Notes: generated from the sequence alone by a model not told the origin. A stretch of 47,574 nt of DNA from Conexibacter sp. (GCA_025964325.1 JAOPZA010000052.1:1-47574), one strand, 5' to 3'. Positions 32,796-45,583 are shown, counted from the stretch's first letter. Numbers and translations: made by a program.

Positions 32796-33734
32796 ATGCC
32801 GATCTCGCTGATGTTGGCGACCCTGACCGACCGTCGCGACTTCGGCGACGACTGGCTGCTGGAGCGCAAGCTCGACGGCGAGCGCTGCGTCGCCCGCAAG
32901 GACGGCGGCGACGTGCGGCTCGAGTCGCGCACCGGCAAGGACCTCACCGGCACCTACCCGGAGATCCGCGCCGCGGTGGCAGCTCAGCCGGCCGGGGAGC
33001 TCCTGCTCGACGGAGAGGTCGTCGCGTACGACGGCGAGCAGACGTCCTTCGGGCGGCTCCAGCAACGCCTCGGGGTCGCCACGCCCTCGCCAGAGCAGCT
33101 GGCGGCGAACCCCGTCGTCTACTGCGTCTTCGACCTCCTCGAGCTCGACGGCGAGGAGCTCACCGGCCGACCACTGATCGAGCGCCGCGCCCGGCTGGCG
33201 AGAGCGATCCGGCCGACGGCGGCATTGCAGCTCACCGAAGCCTGGCGCGACGACGCCCAGCGGCGGTTCGCCGAGGCCTGCCGGTCCGGCTGGGAGGGGC
33301 TGATCGCCAAGCGCGCCGACGCACCGTACGCGCCGGGCCGCTCGAGGGCCTGGCTGAAGCTGAAGTGCGCCTGGGAGCAGGAGCTCGTGATCGGCGGCTA
33401 CACGGATCCCGCCGGCAGCCGGACCGACTTCGGTGCCCTGCTCGTGGGCCACTACGAGGACGGCCGACTGCGGTACGCCGGCAAGGTCGGCACGGGCTAC
33501 GACCAGGCGACGCTCCGCGACCTCGGCGCCCGGCTGCGGGAGCTGGAGACCTCCGAGCCGCCGTTCGCCGACGCGCGACCGGTCCCGCGCGGCACGCACT
33601 GGACGCGGCCCGAGCTGGTCGCCCAGGTCGGCTTCGCGGAGTGGACGAGCGACGGGCGGCTGCGGCAGCCGCGCTTCCTCGGGCTGCGTGACGACAAGCG
33701 CCCGGCCGAGGTCGTCCGGGAGCGGCCGCGGTGA
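32796..33734 (+). CDS. ATP-dependent DNA ligase (LigC/LigD ligase-domain type)
   Basis: A 312-residue single-polypeptide ATP-dependent DNA ligase. The adenylation motif I is LERKLDGERC, with the nucleotidyl lysine K25. Motif III is VYCVFDLLELDGE, motif IV WEGLIAKRADAPYAPG, and motif V AWLKLKCAWEQELVIGGYT, leading into an OB-fold (about 190-300). The layout matches the ligase domain of LigD without primase or nuclease domains, i.e. a LigC-like repair ligase. It overlaps the following DNA glycosylase gene by four bases (GTGA), so the two repair enzymes are made together. Confidence 0.93.
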   Translation: MPISLMLATLTDRRDFGDDWLLERKLDGERCVARKDGGDVRLESRTGKDLTGTYPEIRAAVAAQPAGELLLDGEVVAYDGEQTSFGRLQQRLGVATPSPEQLAANPVVYCVFDLLELDGEELTGRPLIERRARLARAIRPTAALQLTEAWRDDAQRRFAEACRSGWEGLIAKRADAPYAPGRSRAWLKLKCAWEQELVIGGYTDPAGSRTDFGALLVGHYEDGRLRYAGKVGTGYDQATLRDLGARLRELETSEPPFADARPVPRGTHWTRPELVAQVGFAEWTSDGRLRQPRFLGLRDDKRPAEVVRERPR

Positions 33735-34396
33735 GCACGGGCCGCGGTCACGAGCGCGGTGGCGCGGAAGCCGGCGACGACCGCTGGGCGGCCGGACGGG
33801 AGGTGCTGTGCGCGGTGGACCCGCGGATGGCGGCGCTGGTCGAGGCGGAACCGCGGCTGGACCCCGACGACCTGCTCGACAGCCTGCCGAGTGACCTGTG
33901 GGGGGCGCTGGTCCTGCAGGTGATCGGCCAGCAGCTCTCGCTGGCAGCCGCCGCCGCGATCCTGGGTCGGCTCGAGGCGTTGCACGGCGGCCGCCTGCCG
34001 ACGCCCGCCGAGCTGCTCGACACGGACGCCCAGGCCCTGCGCCAGATCGGCCTGTCGCGGGCGAAGGCCGTGTACCTGCACGACCTCGCGGCGCGGCTGG
34101 AGGATGGGCGGCTGGACCCGGAGCGGCTGCGGACCCTCGACGACGACGACGCCCGGACCGAGCTGACCCAGGTCAAGGGCGTCGGTCGCTTCACCGCCGA
34201 CGGCGTGCTGATGCTCGCGCTGCGCCGGCCCGACGTGTGGCCCGCGGCCGACCTGGCGCTGCGCCGCGCGGTCGAGCAGGTGTGGGAGCTGGATCCCCCG
34301 GCGTCGGTCGCGCAGGTCGACGCCCTCGGCGACCGCTTCCGCCCGTGGCGGACGCTCGCGGCCACGTACCTCTATGCGCTGCGGCGGGGCGGGTGA
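33731..34396 (+). CDS. HhH-GPD DNA glycosylase (3-methyladenine/AlkA-like)
   Basis: A 221-residue base-excision glycosylase. The helix-hairpin-helix is QVKGVGRFTADGVLMLAL (about 147-164) and the catalytic Asp is D174 in WPAADLALRRAV. The upstream IGQQLSLAAAAAILGRLEAL (65-84) is typical for the AlkA group. It lacks the C-terminal Cys cluster of EndoIII/MutY. It should remove alkylated purines. The GTG start overlaps the ligase stop, suggesting a small repair operon in which an excised lesion is later sealed by the ligase. The gap 34397-34548 shows a GCCGGC-GCTT-GCCGGC hairpin and no gene. Confidence 0.92.
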   Translation: MSTGRGHERGGAEAGDDRWAAGREVLCAVDPRMAALVEAEPRLDPDDLLDSLPSDLWGALVLQVIGQQLSLAAAAAILGRLEALHGGRLPTPAELLDTDAQALRQIGLSRAKAVYLHDLAARLEDGRLDPERLRTLDDDDARTELTQVKGVGRFTADGVLMLALRRPDVWPAADLALRRAVEQVWELDPPASVAQVDALGDRFRPWRTLAATYLYALRRGG

Positions 34397-35814: not shown

Positions 35815-36957
35815 TCACGGACCGACGGCGAGGGCGTCCGGCTGGAGCGGGGCATCCGCGTCGCCCGCCGTACCGGGCGCGCCGGCGTCGACGTCGGTGA
35901 CGAGGACGGTCTCCTCCGGCGGCACGTAGAGCTCGACGGGCTGGCCCACGGCGAGGTCCGCCGCGGCGTGGGCGGCGATCAGCGCGACGACGCGGCCGGC
36001 ATCCGGCACGTCGAGGATGACCTCGCGCTCGTCGCCGAAGAGCAACGTCTCCGCGACCGTGCCGCGGACGACGAGGCAGTTCGGCGACGGCTCACGGCGC
36101 AGGCTGCGCCGGCGCACGGCGAGCTGCACGGGGCCGGCGATCTCACCGGCGACGCGGCAGCTCAGCTCGTCCTGGCCATAGCGCACGCGGGCGGAGTCCG
36201 GACCCAGGCGCTCCACGAGCGTGACGGGCAGCAGGTTCGAGCTCGCGAAGAAGCTCGCGACGAAGCTGCTCGCCGGCCGGTAGTAGAGCTCCTCGGGCGT
36301 GTCGACGCATTGGAGCCGGCCGTCGCGCATGATCGCGATCCGATCCGACAGCGCGAGGGCCTCCTGCTGATCGTGGGTGACGTAGACGACCGTCGCCTCG
36401 AGGTCGCGGTGGATGCGCCGGATGACCTGCTCCATCTCGATCCGGAGCGCGCGGTCGAGCGCGCCGAGCGGCTCGTCCATCAGGATGATCTCGGGGTCGT
36501 ACGCCAGCGCGCGCGCCAGCGCGACGCGCTGCTGCTGCCCGCCCGAGAGCTGACGCGGGTAGCGCGCCTCGTAGCCCTCCAACCGCACGAGGTCGAGCAT
36601 CTCCCCCACCCGCTCGCGCTGCTCGGCCCGCGGCCAGCGCCTGAGCTTCAGCCCGTACGCGATGTTGTCCGCCACGGTCATGTGCGGGAACAGCGCGTAC
36701 TGCTGGAACACCATCCCGGCCGAGCGGTCGGCGGGGCTGAGCCCCGAGATGTCGCGCCCGCCCAGCAGGATCCGCCCCGCGGTCGGCGACTCGAACCCCA
36801 CGATCATCCGCAGGAGCGTCGTCTTGCCGGACCCGCTCGGACCCAGCAGGGTGAGGAACTCGCCTCGGTGAACCTGGAGCGTGACCCGCTCCAGCGCGTT
36901 GGTGGCCCCGAATGCCTTCGAGACCTCCTGGATATCAAGAGCGATTTCGTCAGTCAC
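35815..36957 (-). CDS. Spermidine/putrescine-type ABC transporter ATPase (PotA-like)
   Basis: A 380-residue ATPase from the GTG at 36957, which overlaps the permease stop (GTGA). Walker A is GPSGSGKTT (39-47), the signature is QLSGGQQQRVALARALA, Walker B IILMDEPLGALD, and the switch is VTHDQQEALALSD. A C-terminal TOBE domain (about 270-360) is the regulatory part typical for PotA/FbpC/UgpC. It energises the two permeases encoded next. Substrates of this subfamily include polyamines, amino-acid derivatives, phosphonates and iron; context here suggests the compound degraded by the flavin monooxygenase system. Confidence 0.93.
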   Translation of the reverse strand: MTDEIALDIQEVSKAFGATNALERVTLQVHRGEFLTLLGPSGSGKTTLLRMIVGFESPTAGRILLGGRDISGLSPADRSAGMVFQQYALFPHMTVADNIAYGLKLRRWPRAEQRERVGEMLDLVRLEGYEARYPRQLSGGQQQRVALARALAYDPEIILMDEPLGALDRALRIEMEQVIRRIHRDLEATVVYVTHDQQEALALSDRIAIMRDGRLQCVDTPEELYYRPASSFVASFFASSNLLPVTLVERLGPDSARVRYGQDELSCRVAGEIAGPVQLAVRRRSLRREPSPNCLVVRGTVAETLLFGDEREVILDVPDAGRVVALIAAHAAADLAVGQPVELYVPPEETVLVTDVDAGAPGTAGDADAPLQPDALAVGP

Positions 36958-37802
36958 TGTCCCGTCCTTCGCAGTCGCAGGGCGATAAGCATCAGGACGC
37001 TCGTGAACAGCATCAGGAGCGTCGCGATGGCGGTGATCACGGGGTCGACCCCGAACCGCACCGAATCGAAGACGGCCTTCGGCAGCGTCACCTGCCCTGG
37101 ACCACCCAGGAAGTTGATGAACACGGCCTCGTCGAAGCTCGTGATGAACGCGAGCACGGCGCCCGCGAGGATCGCGGGGATGAGCAGGCGCAGCGTGATG
37201 CCCGCCCACGCCCGCAGACGGCTCGCGCCGGCCGTCATCGCGGCGAGCTCGAGCTCGACCGGGATGCGGCTCATGGCCGCCGTCGTGACGACGAGGATCA
37301 TCGGGAACGCGAGCACCGTGTTGGCGATGACGAGCCCGAGATACGTCGCCAGCAGGTGCAGCTGGACGAACACGCCGTACATCGCCACCGCATACGCCGA
37401 GAGCGGCACGATCAGCGACGTGACCCCCGCCGCCTGCAGCGCGTGGCGCAGCGGCAGCCGGCTGCGGTTGATCGCGAACACGGCCGGCACCGCGATCAGC
37501 GTCGAGAGCACGACGGCCGGGACCGCGATCTTGACCGACAGCCAGATCGCGTCGCCCCACTGCGGCGAGGTGAACAGCGTGTGGTACTGCCGCGTCCCCC
37601 ATGATCTCGGGGGGAAGTTGAAGTACTTGTCGTTGGAGAAGGAGAGCGCGACGACCAGCGCTGCCGGGATCAGCAGCAGCAGCGCGGCGATCGTGACGAC
37701 CGTGCCGCCCCCGAGCCGGGTCGCCCGATCGCTGAGGTGGCGCATCCGCTCGCGACGGTTGCGATCGGCCGTCACGGCGTTCCTGTCGTGAAGCGGGGCC
37801 AT
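36954..37802 (-). CDS. PotC-like ABC transporter permease
   Basis: About 282 residues from the ATG at 37802; a GTG two codons earlier would overlap the upstream stop and is possible. Six membrane helices are predicted. The cytoplasmic EAA loop is VELELAAMTAGASRLRAWAGITLRLLIPA (landmark in part), with the PotC-like order. FSNDKYFNFPPRSWGTRQYH near the first periplasmic loop is typical of the family. Pairs with the following PotB-like subunit. Confidence 0.93.
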   Translation of the reverse strand: MAPLHDRNAVTADRNRRERMRHLSDRATRLGGGTVVTIAALLLLIPAALVVALSFSNDKYFNFPPRSWGTRQYHTLFTSPQWGDAIWLSVKIAVPAVVLSTLIAVPAVFAINRSRLPLRHALQAAGVTSLIVPLSAYAVAMYGVFVQLHLLATYLGLVIANTVLAFPMILVVTTAAMSRIPVELELAAMTAGASRLRAWAGITLRLLIPAILAGAVLAFITSFDEAVFINFLGGPGQVTLPKAVFDSVRFGVDPVITAIATLLMLFTSVLMLIALRLRRTGQ

Positions 37803-37804
37803 GG

Positions 37805-38707
37805 TCACGCCACCGCCCGGACGAGACGCTCGCGGCCGACGAGGCGCAGGGCGATCCCGAGGATGGCGGTTGCCACGACGAGGAGGACGACCGACGCCGC
37901 GCTCGCGAAGCCGTAGTCGTAGTAGGTCAGGATGTTCGCCTGGATGACGCTCGCCATGAACGGCGTCTGGCCGCCGCCGAGCAGGACCGGGGTGACGTAG
38001 AACCCGACGCTGATCGCGAACACGAGCGCGGCGCTGGCGACCGCGCCGGGCATCGCGAGCGGGACGAGGATCGTGCGCAGCGCCTGGATGCGGCTTGCGC
38101 CCATGCTCTGGGCCGCGGAGAGCAGCGACTGGTCGATGCCGGCGAACACGCCGTAGAGCGAGAAGACGGCGTACGGCACCATCGAGTAGACGATCCCGAT
38201 GACGACCGCGCCGCTCGTGTAGAGGATCTGCTGGCGGCCGATCCCGACCGCGGCGAGCAGGTCGTTGAGCAGGCCGTCGTGGGAGACGAACAGGATGATC
38301 GCGTAGTTCTTCACGACGGTGCCCATCCAGAACGGCGCGAGGACCGCGAGCCACAGCACCGCGCGGACGGCCGGGCTGCGCACGGTGACGAGGTGCCACG
38401 CCAGCATCGCCCCGATCGCGACCGTGATCGCGGTGACGATCACGCTCGCGATCAGCGTCGTGTAGAGCGCGCGCCGTGTCGATGCGTTCGCGAAGACGTC
38501 GGAGTAGTTGCGCAGCCCGTGGTCGGACGTCAGCGAGTCGATCGCGAGCTTGACGAGTGGATAGAAGACGAAGCCGACGAGGAGGGCGACGAGCGGCGCG
38601 AGGAGGATCAGCGCCTTGACGTTGCCGACGGTCGGGCTCCACGGGCGCGCGCCCTCCCGTCGCAATGACGGGAGAGCGCGGCGAATGGTCTGTGCGTGGG
38701 TAGGCAT
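37805..38707 (-). CDS. PotB-like ABC transporter permease
   Basis: A 300-residue inner-membrane subunit with six helices. The EAA-like loop is QSLLSAAQSMGASRIQALRTILVPLAMPG (landmark in part). The N-terminus of about 30 residues is polar. LAPFWMGTVVKNYA and FYVTPVLLGGG are conserved in PotB/PotH proteins. It starts 9 bases after the binding-protein stop. Confidence 0.93.
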   Translation of the reverse strand: MPTHAQTIRRALPSLRREGARPWSPTVGNVKALILLAPLVALLVGFVFYPLVKLAIDSLTSDHGLRNYSDVFANASTRRALYTTLIASVIVTAITVAIGAMLAWHLVTVRSPAVRAVLWLAVLAPFWMGTVVKNYAIILFVSHDGLLNDLLAAVGIGRQQILYTSGAVVIGIVYSMVPYAVFSLYGVFAGIDQSLLSAAQSMGASRIQALRTILVPLAMPGAVASAALVFAISVGFYVTPVLLGGGQTPFMASVIQANILTYYDYGFASAASVVLLVVATAILGIALRLVGRERLVRAVA

Positions 38708-38716
38708 CGAGCCGGC

Positions 38717-39832
38717 TCAGCCCCGGACGTAGTTCTGCCACTGCTGGTTCATCGCGGCCGCGTTCTTCGGCTCCGCGTACCACTGGAAGTTCGGCACCGC
38801 GAGCTTGCGGAAGTTCGGCGGATAGTCCGCGAGCCGAATCGCCTTGGCCTTCGGCAGCAGCTTCATCGCCTTCGGGCTCGGGACGGAGTAGTCCAGCGCC
38901 GCCGCCCATCTCGCCTGGGCCTCCGGATGATCGGCGATCCACTGCATGAACTTCAGTGACTCGTCGACGTGCTTGCTGCCCTTGATGACCGCCCAGATCG
39001 CCGGCTCGTAGGCACCGCCGTCGAGGTTGATCTGGATGTTCATGCCGTTGTCCTTCAGGCGCCAGGCGCGACCGCTCCACATCAGCGCCATGTCGACTTC
39101 CCCGCTGCGCATCATCTGCTCGGACTGGTCCGCCGACTCCCAGAAGGCCTTCACCTTCGGGCGCAGCTTGCCGAGCGCCGCGAAGGCCGGGGGCAGGTTC
39201 GGCGCGATCGTGCTCGTGGCGGACGCGGGCGTGCCGCCCGCGACCGTCGCCATCGTCATCGTGTAGATCGGGGCGCCGCTGGGCAGCGCACGGCTCTGCG
39301 GGAATCTCTGGACGTCGAAGAACTCCGGGATGCTCGACGGGCAGGTCTTCATCCGATCCATGTTGCAGACGATCACGTACGCCAAATTGCTCATCGTGAA
39401 GCCGAAGTCCGTCACCTTCGTCGGCCCCAGCGTCTTCTTGAGCTGGGTCTTCATCGCCGCCGGCAGGTGAACCAGATACCCCTTGCGGTCGAGCAGGTAG
39501 GCGTCCGCAGCGGAGATCGAGTCGACGAGATCCCATGTGACCGAGTGCGATCTCTGCTGCGCCTCGATGCGCGCCACCTGCGTGTCGGAGGCATCGTCGA
39601 ACTTGACGCTCGCGCCTCCCGCTGCGGCGAAGGGGTCGGCATAGAACTGCTTGGTCCCCTGATCGAACGCCCCTCCCCAGTCCCCGACGACGAGCGCCTC
39701 GCCGCTTCCACCCTTACTGGAGCCGCCACCGCCGCTCGAGCTTCCGCAGGCACTGACGACGAGCGCGCAGGACGCCGCGGCGAGGCAGAGCCCCGCCCGC
39801 AGCATGCGCGAACGACCGCATAGTTGACCCAT
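38717..39832 (-). CDS. PotD-like substrate-binding lipoprotein
   Basis: A 371-residue extracytoplasmic binding protein. The lipobox VSAC gives the lipidated Cys29, followed by a Gly/Ser linker. The mature fold (about 45-371) is the type II binding protein of the spermidine/putrescine group: EALVVGDWGGAFDQGTKQFY, WDLVDSISAADAYLLDR, SGEVDMALMWSGRAW and KFMQWIADHPEAQARW. Ligand-contact acidic residues of true polyamine binders cannot be confirmed by eye, so the ligand is open. A GAGGAGAG ribosome site precedes the ATG. It lies 37 bases after the flavin reductase gene, probably in the same message. Confidence 0.92.
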   Translation of the reverse strand: MGQLCGRSRMLRAGLCLAAASCALVVSACGSSSGGGGSSKGGSGEALVVGDWGGAFDQGTKQFYADPFAAAGGASVKFDDASDTQVARIEAQQRSHSVTWDLVDSISAADAYLLDRKGYLVHLPAAMKTQLKKTLGPTKVTDFGFTMSNLAYVIVCNMDRMKTCPSSIPEFFDVQRFPQSRALPSGAPIYTMTMATVAGGTPASATSTIAPNLPPAFAALGKLRPKVKAFWESADQSEQMMRSGEVDMALMWSGRAWRLKDNGMNIQINLDGGAYEPAIWAVIKGSKHVDESLKFMQWIADHPEAQARWAAALDYSVPSPKAMKLLPKAKAIRLADYPPNFRKLAVPNFQWYAEPKNAAAMNQQWQNYVRG

Positions 39833-40412: not shown

Positions 40413-40467
40413 AGCATCAACTCCTTCGAGCGCTCGCCCAAGCGAGCCTCCTGTTCAAGCGTGCAGG

Positions 40468-40496
40468 AGTATAGGCGTTCCTACACAGTTGTGCAA
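40468..40496 (-). promoter_or_regulatory. Promoter and TetR-operator candidate of the flavin reductase/transporter operon
   Basis: On the complement strand TTGCAC (40491-40496) and TATACT (40468-40473) are spaced 17 bases. The -35 is part of the inverted-repeat box TACACAGTTGTGCA (plus strand 40482-40495). The 13-base core CACAGTTGTGCAA is identical to that at 45130-45142. The transcript leader to the GTG would be about 50 bases. The remainder of the gap 40413-40579 shows no gene. Confidence 0.7.
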
Positions 40497-40579
40497 GAGC
40501 GGCGAGCCAGCGGATCCCCGACGGCCCGGCGGCACGACCTCGAAGCACGAGGCGCCGCCGTCCGGGGCCGAGATCGCCG

Positions 40580-41260
40580 CTAGATCTTGGGGCGCGCGGC
40601 GCGCGAGGGCGCGGAGCCGGCGCCGTCCGCAAGCGACCCGGAGATCATCTGACGGCACGCGTGCATCATCGCCTCCGGATCGACCGACTCGTGGTTCAGG
40701 CACCACTCGAGCCACAAGCCGTCGAGGAGCGCGGACAGCGCGAAGACGAGGCGGTCGTGGTCCGGGCCGCGACCGACCGCCGCCACGAGCAGGTCGCTGA
40801 GCATCGTGCGGAAGCTCGAGTAGATCTCGTCGTGGACGCGGCCGACGTCCGCGTCGGTGCGGGCGAGACCCCAGAACAGGAACCGCGCGGTGATGTACTC
40901 CTCGTTGAGGAACCGCGGCTCGAACCCGACCCGCAGGAAGGCCATCAGTCGTTCGTACGGGTCCTCACCCGCAGCGTGCAGCGCCTGCGCCTCCGCCTCG
41001 CGCATCTGCCGCGAGAGGTACGTATACGCGCCGCTCAGCAGCTCCTTCTTGCCGCCGAAGTGGTACGTGATGAGGCTCGGCGAGAGGTCCGCCTCGCTTG
41101 CGATCGCACGGACCGTCGTGCCGACGGGGCCGCGTGTGACGAGGCACCGCAACGTCGCCCGGATGAGCTCCTCGTGACGCACTTCGGGAAGGCCGCGCGT
41201 GATGACACGACGGGGCTTCTCGTCAGGCCCGGGGCCCTTGGTCGGCGCGTCTTCTAGCAC
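40580..41260 (-). CDS. TetR-family regulator (BetI-like)
   Basis: A 226-residue TetR protein from a GTG at 41260. The HTH (about 28-75) reads RHEELIRATLRCLVTRGPVGTTVRAIASEADLSPSLITYHFGGKKELL (landmark in part), with the recognition helix near LSPSLITYHFG. The C-terminal domain, with FRTMLSDLL and ALLDGLWLEWCLN, is the BetI/TetR_C_6 type. It is the only specific regulator in the 35.8-45.6 kb cluster. A variant of the cluster operator box covers its start codon, so autoregulation is likely. It follows the NIPSNAP gene by 37 bases. Confidence 0.9.
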   Translation of the reverse strand: MLEDAPTKGPGPDEKPRRVITRGLPEVRHEELIRATLRCLVTRGPVGTTVRAIASEADLSPSLITYHFGGKKELLSGAYTYLSRQMREAEAQALHAAGEDPYERLMAFLRVGFEPRFLNEEYITARFLFWGLARTDADVGRVHDEIYSSFRTMLSDLLVAAVGRGPDHDRLVFALSALLDGLWLEWCLNHESVDPEAMMHACRQMISGSLADGAGSAPSRAARPKI

Positions 41261-41270
41261 AGGTGTTCAA
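41257..41270. promoter_or_regulatory. Variant operator box over the TetR start codon
   Basis: GCACAGGTGTTCAA matches 12 of 14 positions of GCACAGTTGTGCAA at 45129-45142. It overlaps the GTG start of the TetR gene, a position suited to autorepression. Fewer symmetric positions are kept than at the other two sites. Confidence 0.5.
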
Positions 41271-41297
41271 CGCTACCAGAGCACCCGGGCCGGGATT

Positions 41298-41648
41298 TCA
41301 GTCGTCGCCGGACAGTCGACGCGCAGGGTCCAGCGCCCGCAGTACCCGGCGCTCGATGCTCGCGATCAGCGGTCCGTCGCGCTCGGTGACCTCCCGCACG
41401 CGCGTCCAGCGCGCGTCCGCCACGAACGCCTCCCACGTGCGCCGCATCTGCTCCTCGTCGCGCCACGCGAGGACATAGTGCAGGTGGCCGGGACCGTCGT
41501 CGTCGCGCCCGAACGCGAGGACCCGCATGCCATGCGCGTCGAACAGCGGGAAGGTGTGCGCATGGAAGCGGCGCACGAGCCGGTCCGCGCAGCCCGGCGC
41601 CGCCACGTAGTGGCGCCACTCGAGGATCCCGTCGGCGTCGCCGGTCAC
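41298..41648 (-). CDS. NIPSNAP-family protein
   Basis: A 116-residue dimeric alpha/beta-barrel-like protein from the GTG at 41648, overlapping the aldehyde dehydrogenase stop (GTGA). ILEWRHYVAAPGCADRLVRRF and TFPLFDAHGMRVLAFGRDDDGPGHLHYVLAW (landmark in part) fit NIPSNAP, a family often found with degradative monooxygenases but without a settled catalytic role. It may be an isomerase- or monooxygenase-like helper. In the operon it follows the LLM, hydrolase and aldehyde dehydrogenase genes. Confidence 0.82.
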   Translation of the reverse strand: MTGDADGILEWRHYVAAPGCADRLVRRFHAHTFPLFDAHGMRVLAFGRDDDGPGHLHYVLAWRDEEQMRRTWEAFVADARWTRVREVTERDGPLIASIERRVLRALDPARRLSGDD

Positions 41649-43111
41649 CGCTCGTTGACGTACTTGGGGACGAGGTAGGCGGCGAGACCCTCGATGCCGC
41701 CCTCGGTTCCGTGGCCGCTGTCCTTGACCCCGCCGAACGGCGACTCGGGCGTCGAGATCTCGAAGCTGTTGATGGCGAGCATGCCGACCGCCAGACGGTC
41801 GGCGACCGCGCGCCGCGTCTCGAACGAGCGCGCGAACGCGTAGCCCGCCAAGCCGTAGCCCAGCGCGTTCGCCCGGGTGAGGACCTCGCGCAGGTCGGAG
41901 AACGGCGTGATCGGGGCGATCGGCCCGAACGGCTCCTCGCGCATCACGCACACGTCGTCGGACTGCGTGAGCACGACCGTCGGGCGCCAGAACGACCCGC
42001 CTTGCGGCACGTCCCGGTCCGAGGTCTGGACCGTCGCGCCGACGGCCGTCGCGGCGTCCTCGACGAGCGCCGCCATCGCAACCACGCGGCGAGCGTTCGC
42101 GAGCGGCCCCATCTCGGTCGCCTCGTCCAGGCCGTCTCCGACGCGCAGCGCGAACGCCGTCTTCGTGAAGGCCTCCACGAAGCGGTCGTGGACCTTGCGG
42201 TGCACGAAGAACCGCGAGGGCACGACGCAGATCTGGCCGGCATTGCGGAACTTCGCGCGGGCGGCCGCGATCGCGACGGGCACGACGTCCACGTCGTCGA
42301 AGACGATGACGGGAGCGTGGCCGCCGAGCTCCAGGCTGACGGGCTTGAGGTGGCGCCCCGCCAGCGCGGCGATCTCGCGGCCGACCGGGATCGAGCCGGT
42401 GAAGGAGACCTTGCGGATGATCGGCGAGGCGATCAGGTGCTCGGCGACGACCGGCGGGTCCCCGAAGACGACGTTGACCGCCCGCTCCGTCACGCCCGCG
42501 TCGAGACACGCGCGCACGACCTCAAGGAAGCTGCCCGGCGTCTCCTCGGCGGGCTTGATCACGCACGAGCACCCCGCGGCCAGCAGCTCGGCGAGCTTGC
42601 GAGCCGGCGACAGGACCGGGAAGTTCCACGGCCCGAACGCGGCGACGGGACCGACCGGCTCTTCGACCACCAGCTGGCGCACGCCCGGGGCGCCGCTCGG
42701 CAGCAGGCGGCCGCAGCGGTGGCGCGCCTCCTCCCCGCTCCACTCGAACGTGTCGGCGGTCCGCAGGATCTCGCCGCGCGCCTCGGGCAGCGTCTTGCCC
42801 TCCTCGAGCGTGATCACGCGGGCGATCGCGTCGGCCCGCTCGCGCAGCAGCTCGGCGGTGCGCTTCAGCACCGCGCCGCGGTCCCACGCCGAGACCGTGC
42901 GCCAGGCCTCGAACCCCTGCTGGGCCGACGCGAGCGCCCGGTCGACGTCGTCCGGCGTCGCGAGCGGCAGCTGCCCGATGACGGCGGAGGTGGCGGGGTT
43001 CGTCACGTCCACGCAGTCGCGGTCGCGGGAGCCGATCCACTCGCCGTCCAGGTAGAGCCCCAGCGCGGTGTACTGCGCCGGCACGGAAGTCGCTTGCGGT
43101 GTCTGGGTCAC
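41645..43111 (-). CDS. Aldehyde dehydrogenase family protein (NAD(P)-dependent)
   Basis: A 488-residue aldehyde dehydrogenase from the GTG at 43111, overlapping the hydrolase stop (GTGA). The catalytic Cys is C295 in NAGQICVVPSRF, the general base E261 in SLELGGHAPVIV, and the oxyanion Asn N163 in GPWNFPV. K186-region IKPAEETP and the cofactor loop SFTGSIPVGREI are present. It should oxidise an aldehyde released upstream in the pathway, such as succinate-semialdehyde-like or other small aldehydes. It is similar in length to the usual family. Confidence 0.94.
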   Translation of the reverse strand: MTQTPQATSVPAQYTALGLYLDGEWIGSRDRDCVDVTNPATSAVIGQLPLATPDDVDRALASAQQGFEAWRTVSAWDRGAVLKRTAELLRERADAIARVITLEEGKTLPEARGEILRTADTFEWSGEEARHRCGRLLPSGAPGVRQLVVEEPVGPVAAFGPWNFPVLSPARKLAELLAAGCSCVIKPAEETPGSFLEVVRACLDAGVTERAVNVVFGDPPVVAEHLIASPIIRKVSFTGSIPVGREIAALAGRHLKPVSLELGGHAPVIVFDDVDVVPVAIAAARAKFRNAGQICVVPSRFFVHRKVHDRFVEAFTKTAFALRVGDGLDEATEMGPLANARRVVAMAALVEDAATAVGATVQTSDRDVPQGGSFWRPTVVLTQSDDVCVMREEPFGPIAPITPFSDLREVLTRANALGYGLAGYAFARSFETRRAVADRLAVGMLAINSFEISTPESPFGGVKDSGHGTEGGIEGLAAYLVPKYVNER

Positions 43112-43989
43112 GCTGCATCCATGTGTCGTCGGAGGACCTGGCAGAGCTCGCTGCGAGGATCCGCGAGCGACTCGACCAGCGAGTAGTGGTTGTGGCCGGC
43201 GAGCACCGCCGTCTCGATCGGAGCCGACCGGCTGTCCCACTGGACCTGCATGGCGCGGGCCTGCCGGATGAACTCGGCGCCCTCGTCGCCGCCGACCGAG
43301 AGGTGCAGCGGCGCGCGGACCGTCGGTCCGAGGCGAAGCGGACTGTTGTCGAAGACGTCCTCGATCCCGAGCCGCAGCGTCTCGTCCAGGTAGGACTGGC
43401 GGATCGGCTCGAGGTCGAAGAGCCCGCTGAGCGCCAGCCCGCCGCGCACCGCGTCGGGCCCGACGCCCCACGGCTCCCAGTCCGTCGCCATCAGCATCGC
43501 GACGATGTGCCCGCCGGCCGAGTGGCCGGTGAGGTGCAGGCGGGTGCTGTCGCAGTGCAGCTGCGCGGCGTTCGCGTGCACGTGGGCCAGCGCCCGGCGG
43601 CACTGGTCCAGGAGCTGCGTCATCGTCACCGCCGGCATCAGCGCGTACTCGACCACGACGAGCGTCGCGTCGAGCGCGACGATGCCGTCGGCCAAGAACG
43701 AGTAGCGCTCCTTCGTGCTCGCCCGCCAGTACCCGCCGTGGAAGAAGAAGACGGCCGGCGCACCGGGCGTCGCTGCGGGGAAGACGTCGAGCCGCTCGCG
43801 CGGGTGCTCGCCGTACGCGACGTCGAGCAGCGGGTCGCTCGCCGCCCGCGCCGCGACGCTGCGCGCCTCGAACCGATCCAGGTACTCGTCGACGTCCGGA
43901 ACCTGGCGCGCCGCCTCGTACAGCCCGTCGAGCTCCGCCTGGCTGTAGCCGAGATAGCGCCGCCCGCCCCGTCCGCCGTCGCCTGTCAT
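43108..43989 (-). CDS. Alpha/beta hydrolase, arylformamidase/carboxylesterase-like
   Basis: A 293-residue hydrolase from the ATG at 43989, overlapping the LLM stop (ATGA). The oxyanion motif is HGGYW (84-88), and the nucleophile is S157 in LTGHSAGGH. A late His in LAGHNHYSLVE completes the triad. The HGGYW form and overall pattern are those of kynurenine formamidases and related amidases/esterases. It may cleave a formamide, amide or ester formed by the monooxygenase. No tryptophan-pathway genes are nearby, so kynurenine is not implied. Confidence 0.9.
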   Translation of the reverse strand: MTGDGGRGGRRYLGYSQAELDGLYEAARQVPDVDEYLDRFEARSVAARAASDPLLDVAYGEHPRERLDVFPAATPGAPAVFFFHGGYWRASTKERYSFLADGIVALDATLVVVEYALMPAVTMTQLLDQCRRALAHVHANAAQLHCDSTRLHLTGHSAGGHIVAMLMATDWEPWGVGPDAVRGGLALSGLFDLEPIRQSYLDETLRLGIEDVFDNSPLRLGPTVRAPLHLSVGGDEGAEFIRQARAMQVQWDSRSAPIETAVLAGHNHYSLVESLADPRSELCQVLRRHMDAA

Positions 43990-45059
43990 GCGATCGTGGT
44001 GCTCACGCCGTCGCGCTGGAACTCCGGCATCACGGACTCCGCGAAGAGCCGCATCGAGCGCATCGTCGTCTCCTGGTCGTAGCCGAGGTCGAAGTACGCG
44101 CTGAACTGGTCGACGCCCATCTCCGCGTACTGGCGGATCTGCTCGCGGACGGTGTCGGGGTCGCCGAACGGCACGGTCTCGAGGACCTCCTGCGCGGTGA
44201 CCTCGTTCTTCACGGGACGGATCTCGATCCTCCCGTTGACGTAGCGCTCGTTGCCCTCGAGCTGCGCGTAGAGCCCGCGGTGGACGTCGATCATCTGCGG
44301 GATCGCCTCGTGGACGTCCGCCATCGTCTCGCCGACGTACGTCGTGCGGTTGACGGCGAAGGCGCCGTCGGAGCGGGCGAAGCCGTTGTCGGCGAGCGCC
44401 TGCTCGAACGCGTCGTAGCCCTTCTGCAGCTCCGACATCGGGTTGCGGAACGGGCTCGTGATGATCTTCGGCGGGATGCCGAGCTTGCGGCACGTCGCGA
44501 CCTGCCCGGTGATCGACTGCGGCGTCAGCCCGGACAACCACAGCGCCGGCAGCGGCTTGGTGACGGGGCGCGGCAGGATCGTCACGTCGTCGAAGTCGAA
44601 GAAGCGGCCGTGGTGGGAGATGTCGACGTCGCTCATCCACCCCCGCGTCATCACCTCGAGGTGCTCGGAGAAGTACGCGCGGCTCTCCTCGACCTCCATC
44701 GCGTTGCCGAGCTTCAGCGCCTCGAAGCGCGACGAGCCGCGACCGACCGCCGTCTCGAACCGACCGGGATACAGGACGTCGATCTGGGCCAGCTTGCCCG
44801 CGAGCTGCAGCGGGTGGTGGTTGGGGAGGATGAAGACCGCGACCCCGACGCGGATGCGTTCGGTGCGCTCGAAGATCCGCGTCGCGAGCTGGAGGGGATC
44901 CGGGAGCAGGTTGTAGTTGTTGAAGTGGTGCTCGACCAGCCAGACCAGGTCGAAGCCGAGCTCCTCCGCCACGACCGCCTGCTCCGTGAGGTCGTCGAAC
45001 AGCTGTGACTCGCTGCGCCCGTCCAGGTTGTGCGCCGCCAGGAATGTCGCGAATTCCAT
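43986..45059 (-). CDS. LLM-class flavin-dependent monooxygenase (luciferase-like)
   Basis: A 357-residue bacterial-luciferase-like TIM barrel using reduced FMN supplied by a separate reductase. VVAEELGFDLVWLVEHHF (29-46) carries the conserved EHH. IRVGVAVFILPNHHPLQLAGKLAQID and the phosphate-binding FETAVGRGSSRFEALKLG are typical (landmarks in part). WLSGLTPQSITG and the C-terminal VPFGDPDTVREQIRQYAEMGVDQF are also family features. GGAG precedes the ATG. It is the first gene of the minus-strand operon and diverges from the cupin gene. Substrate unknown; related enzymes attack C-N, C-S and C-C bonds or aldehydes. Confidence 0.92.
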   Translation of the reverse strand: MEFATFLAAHNLDGRSESQLFDDLTEQAVVAEELGFDLVWLVEHHFNNYNLLPDPLQLATRIFERTERIRVGVAVFILPNHHPLQLAGKLAQIDVLYPGRFETAVGRGSSRFEALKLGNAMEVEESRAYFSEHLEVMTRGWMSDVDISHHGRFFDFDDVTILPRPVTKPLPALWLSGLTPQSITGQVATCRKLGIPPKIITSPFRNPMSELQKGYDAFEQALADNGFARSDGAFAVNRTTYVGETMADVHEAIPQMIDVHRGLYAQLEGNERYVNGRIEIRPVKNEVTAQEVLETVPFGDPDTVREQIRQYAEMGVDQFSAYFDLGYDQETTMRSMRLFAESVMPEFQRDGVSTTIA

Positions 45060-45102
45060 GTATCCGTCTCCGGTCGCGCGGCTTTCTCCTCAGAGCCGCT
45101 GT

Positions 45103-45142
45103 TGCACGGTCGTACAGTACCTCCTTCTGCACAGTTGTGCAA
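45103..45142 (-). promoter_or_regulatory. Promoter and TetR-operator candidate of the LLM operon, between divergent genes
   Basis: On the complement strand TTGCAC (45137-45142) and TACTGT (45114-45119) are spaced 17 bases. The -35 belongs to the inverted repeat TGCACA-GT-TGTGCA (45128-45141). A degenerate second copy, TGCACGGTCGTACA (45103-45116), covers the -10. Operators on both elements would block this promoter and could also affect the divergent cupin gene, which starts about 100 bases away. Confidence 0.7.
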
Positions 45143-45244
45143 TAAGCTGCGGTGGCACGCGCACGTTCTCTGCGCGCCACCGCCGAGCTGACGGGCGCGG
45201 GCGCTGAGCCCGCCGCCGCGACGCCTGACCGAGGGGAAAGCAAC

Positions 45245-45583
45245 ATGGACGCGATGCACGTGAAGGCCGCCACCGTGGGCCTGGACGAATGGGGCGTGCG
45301 CAAGGGCGCCGACAGCGGCGAGCCGCTCACGTCGGGCCTGCGCCTGCACGAGAAGGGCTCGAAGCCGGAGGCCGGCGTCTGGGCCTGCACCCCGGGCGGC
45401 TGGGCGATCGAGGACCGCCCCAACACGGAGGTCAACGTGATCCTCTCCGGCCGCGCGCGGATCACGAACGAGGACGGGTCCGTGGTCGAGCTGGAACCGG
45501 GCGACCTCGTCGTGCTGCCGACGGGCTGGTCGGGGCGCTGGGACATCCTCGAGCCGCTTCGCAAGACGTACGCCATCTGGTAG
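45245..45583 (+). CDS. Cupin-domain protein
   Basis: A 112-residue single-cupin protein from the ATG at 45245, after GAGGGGAAAG; a longer frame upstream crosses the operator region and is rejected. The fold is visible in GVWACTPGGWAIEDRPNTEVNVILSGRARITNEDGS (landmark in part) followed by LEPGDLVVLPTGWSGRWDI. It resembles the DUF861 or ureidoglycine-aminohydrolase-like cupins. The usual metal His residues are mostly missing, so a ligand-binding or non-metal role is possible. Divergent from the LLM operon and probably under the same TetR control. Confidence 0.85.
   Translation: MDAMHVKAATVGLDEWGVRKGADSGEPLTSGLRLHEKGSKPEAGVWACTPGGWAIEDRPNTEVNVILSGRARITNEDGSVVELEPGDLVVLPTGWSGRWDILEPLRKTYAIW

Follow-up and report, generated by a model that had tools for sequence, protein, structure and literature searches.

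A palindrome shared by two promoters as the probable operator of an embedded TetR-family repressor in a flavin-dependent monooxygenase cluster of Conexibacter sp.

Two promoters that lie about 4.6 kb apart in a gene cluster of Conexibacter sp. contain the same 13-base sequence in exact copies, and this raises the question of whether the TetR-family regulator that is encoded in the same cluster recognizes this sequence and thereby controls its surroundings. The cluster is part of a stretch of 47,574 nucleotides (GCA_025964325.1 JAOPZA010000052.1:1-47574), in the following referred to as the window, and consists of ten genes for uptake and oxidation, all on the minus strand of the DNA of this soil-type actinobacterium (35.8–45.06 kb), including genes for a luciferase-like flavin-dependent monooxygenase (LLM), a flavin reductase, an ATP-binding cassette (ABC) importer, and the regulator itself. 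Our analysis suggests that a palindrome with the 16-bp form TTGCAC-N4-GTGCAA is very probably the operator of the TetR protein from 40580–41260, which would thus act as a local autorepressor of three transcription units. An earlier note on this DNA had come to a shared operator that “fixes” the TetR regulon; the shared operator of the embedded regulator is still the best explanation, whereas the word “fixes” was too strong for a conclusion drawn from sequence.

The 13-mer CACAGTTGTGCAA is present in exact copies at 40484–40496 and 45130–45142, as had been noticed before, and a copy with two mismatches at 41258–41270 corresponds to the variant that had been described on the tetR start codon. 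When sites are compared with the palindrome TGCACANNTGTGCA, there are no mismatches at 45128, one at 40482, two at 41256, and three at each of the positions 45103 and 40452. These five sites are spread over three gaps, namely those before the LLM, tetR, and flavin reductase genes, and no operator site was found in the 37-bp gap between the flavin reductase gene and that of the solute-binding protein (SBP). The predicted primary operator O3 (45127–45142, TTGCACAACTGTGCAG on the minus strand) lies over the −35 box and the spacer of the LLM operon promoter and is the best match in the genome. Its weaker partner O3b (45102–45117, CTGTACGACCGTGCAA on the minus strand), with a center 25 bp from that of O3, overlaps the hexamer TACTGT and the probable transcription start, and is the degenerate copy that had been located on the LLM −10 box. 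Operator O2 (41255–41270, TTGAACACCTGTGCTA on the minus strand) covers the GTG start codon of tetR at 41258–41260. The second predicted primary operator, O1 (40481–40496, TTGCACAACTGTGTAG on the minus strand), is positioned over the −35 box and the spacer of the flavin reductase promoter, and its weaker partner O1b (40451–40466, CTGCACGCTTGAACAG on the minus strand) follows downstream of the −10 box, with a center 30 bp from that of O1. The four sites listed in the earlier note were thus all recovered, but O1b, a copy with three mismatches at 40452–40465, had been overlooked. Each structural-gene promoter has a primary site over the −35 box and spacer and a weaker partner 25–30 bp downstream, with spacings of 2.4 and 2.9 helical turns, i.e., not whole turns.

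The position of the primary sites relative to the promoters is the same in both cases. In the LLM operon promoter (45114–45142, minus strand), TTGCAC at 45137–45142 is separated by a 17-base spacer from TACTGT at 45114–45119, and in the promoter of the flavin reductase and ABC importer genes (40468–40496, minus strand), TTGCAC is separated by a spacer of the same length from TATACT at 40468–40473. The distance from operator to hexamer is 11 bp at both promoters, which bears out the former statement that placement and phase are identical. TANNNT is a looser actinobacterial −10 motif; on the minus strand, each large gap has a single copy of it, equally distant from the 13-mer in both, and there are 24 copies in the 47,569 positions of the window. 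TTGCAC agrees with TTGACA at only three of six positions, as does TACTGT of the LLM promoter with TATAAT, and these are therefore not strong sigma-70 boxes; the 17-base spacing had been described correctly, but not the quality of the boxes. A scan with the sigma-70 consensus returned only TGCACA-16-TATACT at 40495–40468 (9/12), which is the flavin reductase promoter, and detected no promoter for the LLM operon in 45040–45260. With such weak boxes, the placement argument stands on the equal spacing. Sequences resembling ribosome-binding sites precede the flavin reductase gene (AAGGAG) and the LLM gene (GGAG), and the start codons of both genes are about 48–50 bases from the likely transcription starts.

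How surprising this arrangement is depends on what is counted. An exact word of at least 13 bases shared by the two promoter gaps was obtained in 2 of 600 shuffles (~0.3%), and the exact repeat alone is therefore moderately surprising, but not decisive. Within the three gaps of the cluster (389 bases plus the tetR start), five sites with up to three mismatches were found, whereas 5000 dinucleotide shuffles yielded 0.109 sites on average and never more than 2; as the motif was derived from these data, only the four sites beyond the reference should be counted. The bare repeat (2/600) is thus weaker evidence against chance than the five gap sites (0/5000). The only two exact copies of TTGCACAACTGTG in the 4.34-Mb genome are those of the cluster, and three of the four sites that match TTGCACANNTGTGCAA with up to two mismatches are located there as well (45127, 40481, and 41255). 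With up to three mismatches, there are 17 genomic sites as compared to 22 for the reversed control pattern, and the motif outside the cluster therefore represents background. This genome scan had been set as a check beforehand, and it found exact copies nowhere else and no genome-wide excess, an outcome that speaks for the shared operator. Matches on contigs C191 and C29 overlap open reading frames. In the whole window, 11 sites with up to three mismatches compare with 8.05 expected, which is no enrichment, and the signal is the concentration of sites in promoter gaps, not a window-wide excess.

The candidate regulator has 226 amino acids (40580–41260, minus strand) and contains TetR_N and TetR_C_6, the BetI-type C-terminal domain (PF00440, 9.9e-11; PF13977, 4.3e-18). 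Its best NCBIfam match is BetI (TIGR03384), with 98.6 bits at a cut-off of 201.3, and the protein is therefore not BetI. The structure model consists of nine helices without other secondary structure (pLDDT, the predicted local distance difference test score, of 78.5 from a shallow alignment), and its top fold matches are TetR proteins, the first being 3e7q of Pseudomonas aeruginosa; NicR2, a regulator of nicotine degradation, and a choline-bound regulator are also among them. In conclusion, the regulator is a TetR-family protein that is BetI-like but below the BetI cut-off. Many TetR proteins act as repressors on palindromic sites located across promoters, and for most members of the family the regulated genes are no more than 200 bp away from the regulator gene (PMC6790063). 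LuxR of Vibrio harveyi, a TetR protein, binds a dyad around four non-specific bases (PMC2628434), and the geometry of its sites, like that of RutR sites, is comparable to that of the cluster palindrome.

In the mechanism that we propose, a TetR dimer would occupy the −35 box and spacer at both promoters as well as the beginning of tetR. The bound regulator would block RNA polymerase at the LLM monooxygenase–hydrolase–aldehyde dehydrogenase–NIPSNAP(–tetR) unit, at tetR itself, and at the flavin reductase–SBP–permease–permease–ATPase unit, and the weaker second sites 25–30 bp downstream may reinforce repression at the LLM and flavin reductase units. The compound that is imported by the ABC system, or a product of it, would bind to the C-terminal domain of TetR and lift the repression, and importer, flavin reductase, and monooxygenase would be turned on together by this coordinated derepression. 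As luciferase-type monooxygenases depend on a partner for their reduced flavin, a coupling of reductase and monooxygenase makes sense. The solved structural relatives of the LLM protein include bacterial luciferase alpha chains, and from the co-regulated flavin reductase we infer that the LLM protein uses flavin mononucleotide (FMN), not the coenzyme F420. The regulatory logic itself is that of a textbook TetR on/off switch. We see even chances for the more far-reaching idea that a dedicated repressor with operators at three promoters, arranged as strong/weak pairs at those of the structural genes, controls a not yet described flavin-dependent catabolic pathway (importer, LLM monooxygenase/reductase, hydrolase, and aldehyde dehydrogenase) that is present here, but in no other searched genome of the order. 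With the palindromes located, the cluster becomes a defined, testable regulon with known positions of the predicted operators, and its promoters could readily serve as reporters in a search for the inducing compound, and hence for the substrate of the monooxygenase.

Comparison with other genomes gave distant relatives. Searches with the TetR and LLM proteins in the order and the phylum returned no further match with strict thresholds and distant matches only with looser ones, and the nearest TetR proteins of the phylum are about 30% identical. A contig scan with the TetR protein found only TetR proteins of 30–47% identity over partial stretches, none of them beside cluster homologues as judged by tblastn, which seems to have missed some loci. 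The Rhizobium phaseoli, Arthrobacter crystallopoietes, and Roseovarius pelagicus plasmid clusters resemble the cluster in having LLM, flavin reductase, aldehyde dehydrogenase, hydrolase, NIPSNAP/EthD, and ABC importer genes, a set that is complete in Rhizobium and partial in the other two; the LLM proteins are only about 28–30% identical. The regulator is a GntR protein in Rhizobium and a PucR protein in Arthrobacter, and the gene contents point to a catabolic module that occurs repeatedly and whose regulator can be exchanged. The Rhizobium phaseoli plasmid operon (L039:7230–17226) contains genes for hydrolase, flavin reductase, LLM, aldehyde dehydrogenase, NIPSNAP, ABC importer, and succinate-semialdehyde dehydrogenase (SSADH), with an adjoining GntR gene. 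Pyridine-degradation (pyr) clusters, in which the pyridine ring is cleaved, have a similar gene content, which we regard as a lead only.

The Roseovarius pelagicus plasmid encodes a homologous BetI-like TetR protein with 36% identity to that of the cluster, and its gene diverges from a solute-binding protein–flavin reductase–LLM–tautomerase–hydrolase–permeases–ATPase–SSADH operon. Between tetR and this operon lie CGTACATATGTACG and CGTACAAATGTACA (L042:36697–36710 and 36723–36736), 26 bp apart, which are probably the operator pair of the Roseovarius regulator. The geometry of this pair (6-2-6, ~25 bp apart) resembles that of O3 and O3b, and palindromes as such are modestly overrepresented there (P 0.019). 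Relatives of the Roseovarius regulator were found in 7 of 295 Roseobacter genomes, three of them with adjoining LLM and/or hydrolase homologues, and a palindrome of the window type was not seen upstream of tetR in these three. In another actinobacterium, the perfect palindrome CTGAACGACCGTTCAG immediately precedes a BetI-like TetR gene (L055 and L087, G487:C19) and is possibly an autoregulatory operator. Other BetI-like tetR genes also have neighboring -AC-N4-GT- palindromes; examples such as CTGAAC-GACC-GTTCAG at L055 and TTATAC-AAAC-GTATAA in Ruegeria are no more than suggestive. A literature search of limited reach found nothing directly relevant on the motif or on such a TetR/LLM operon.

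Several observations weigh against an operator of the cluster TetR. At the thresholds used, an orthologous cluster was found neither among 232 genomes of the order nor in a sample of 396 from the phylum, and there is therefore no close footprint of the operators; the Roseovarius sites do not resemble the window motif significantly more than shuffled sequences do (P 0.15–0.20), and we do not count them as evidence of a conserved sequence. Both promoters are weak by the sigma-70 consensus. Furthermore, the tetR GTG codon within the operator has no clear ribosome-binding site, and therefore the start codon, and with it the position of a site on the start codon, is uncertain; a leaderless translation of tetR or a coupling to NIPSNAP would be possible. 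There may also be a narrower, non-exclusive form of the proposed regulation, in which the repressor mainly controls the LLM and flavin reductase promoters, and O2 and the partner sites have arisen by chance or have no effect. This is a tentative option that we do not favor: it would fit the two mismatches of O2 and the three of the partners, the differing partner spacings (25 and 30 bp) that are not whole helical turns, and a possible transcription of tetR from the LLM operon across the 37-bp gap; however, all five sites occur in gaps where 0.109 would be expected, and the O2 half-sites are still recognizable exactly at the tetR start.

More fundamentally, the palindrome could be the site of a different regulator, either another TetR protein or a global factor, with the cluster TetR acting elsewhere or only being a target. 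The genome has other TetR genes, and a 1-mismatch site (GTGCACATATGTTCAC when written with 16 bp) is located at the start of one such TetR-like gene on contig C175 (L003:1500–1515), which, as we read the translations, diverges from a ferredoxin-reductase-like gene. The site probably belongs to that regulator and suggests that TG(C/A)ACA half-sites are common to several TetR proteins; such half-sites are therefore not private to the cluster TetR, and the primary sites lie at the −35 boxes of genes other than tetR. Nevertheless, numerous sites would be expected for a global factor, and the genome count showed no excess over the control. As the targets of TetR proteins are mostly neighboring genes (PMC6790063) and one site lies on the cluster tetR itself, we consider a foreign regulator improbable. 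Chance could have produced a short repeat in two comparatively AT-rich promoter regions of a genome with high GC content, in line with the 2 of 600 shuffles, but the 13-mer is palindromic, has no exact genomic copies beyond the two in the cluster, lies at an equal distance from the sole −10-like hexamer at both promoters, and is accompanied by three further copies, which makes a coincidence very unlikely. Being an inverted repeat, the element could also act in RNA as a terminator or riboregulator, but no terminator-like sites were seen in the scan, no Rfam family matched, and the primary sites O1 and O3 precede the probable transcription starts, and an RNA function can hardly be credited. An operator of the TetR protein from 40580–41260 thus best accounts for the palindrome.

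Among known systems, rut of Escherichia coli also includes a flavin-dependent monooxygenase of the LLM superfamily, RutA, with RutF as its flavin reductase. The likeness extends to regulation by a TetR-type repressor with a palindrome of similar size at its own gene and at an adjacent catabolic operon with a transporter: RutR binds a palindrome of ~16 bp, regulates the rut operon as well as its own gene, and is released by uracil (PMC10891134). However, the cluster flavin reductase reaches only 54.2 bits with the RutF model (TIGR03615, cut-off 254.75), the LLM protein has no Rut model among the best 25 of 30 NCBIfam matches, an ABC importer takes the place of the RutG transporter, and the cluster TetR is nearer to BetI than to any Rut model. 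By analogy, the cluster would work like RutR/rut, but it is not a member of this system. With BetI, the choline-sensing repressor of the bet genes, the regulator has in common the TetR_C_6 domain, the best NCBIfam match, and the linkage to an aldehyde dehydrogenase gene. However, no choline dehydrogenase was seen in the cluster, and the bet genes include no LLM monooxygenase, whereas the cluster has LLM, hydrolase, SSADH-like aldehyde dehydrogenase, and ABC importer genes. The cluster aldehyde dehydrogenase scored 365.5 bits with the betaine aldehyde dehydrogenase model (cut-off 668.6).

In the direction of transcription, all on the minus strand, the LLM monooxygenase (43986–45059), an alpha/beta hydrolase (43108–43989), an SSADH-like aldehyde dehydrogenase (41645–43111), and a small NIPSNAP/EthD-like protein (41298–41648) are encoded by genes joined by 4-base overlaps. 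A 37-bp gap separates NIPSNAP from tetR, and a 167-bp gap follows before the flavin reductase gene (PF01613, 39870–40412). After the 37-bp gap behind the latter, the genes for the importer are nearly contiguous and encode the SBP (SBP_bac_8, 38717–39832), a PotB-like permease (37805–38707), a second permease (36954–37805, start codon approximate), and the ATPase (ABC_tran and TOBE_2, 35815–36957). A divergent gene for a Cupin_3 protein (45245–45583, plus strand) shares the intergenic region of O3; the consensus scan found no promoter on the plus strand of this region toward the Cupin_3 gene, and the membership of this gene in the regulon is uncertain. Adjoining the cluster, at 32796–34393 of the window (plus strand), a gene for an ATP-dependent DNA ligase is directly followed by one for an HhH-GPD base-excision repair protein.

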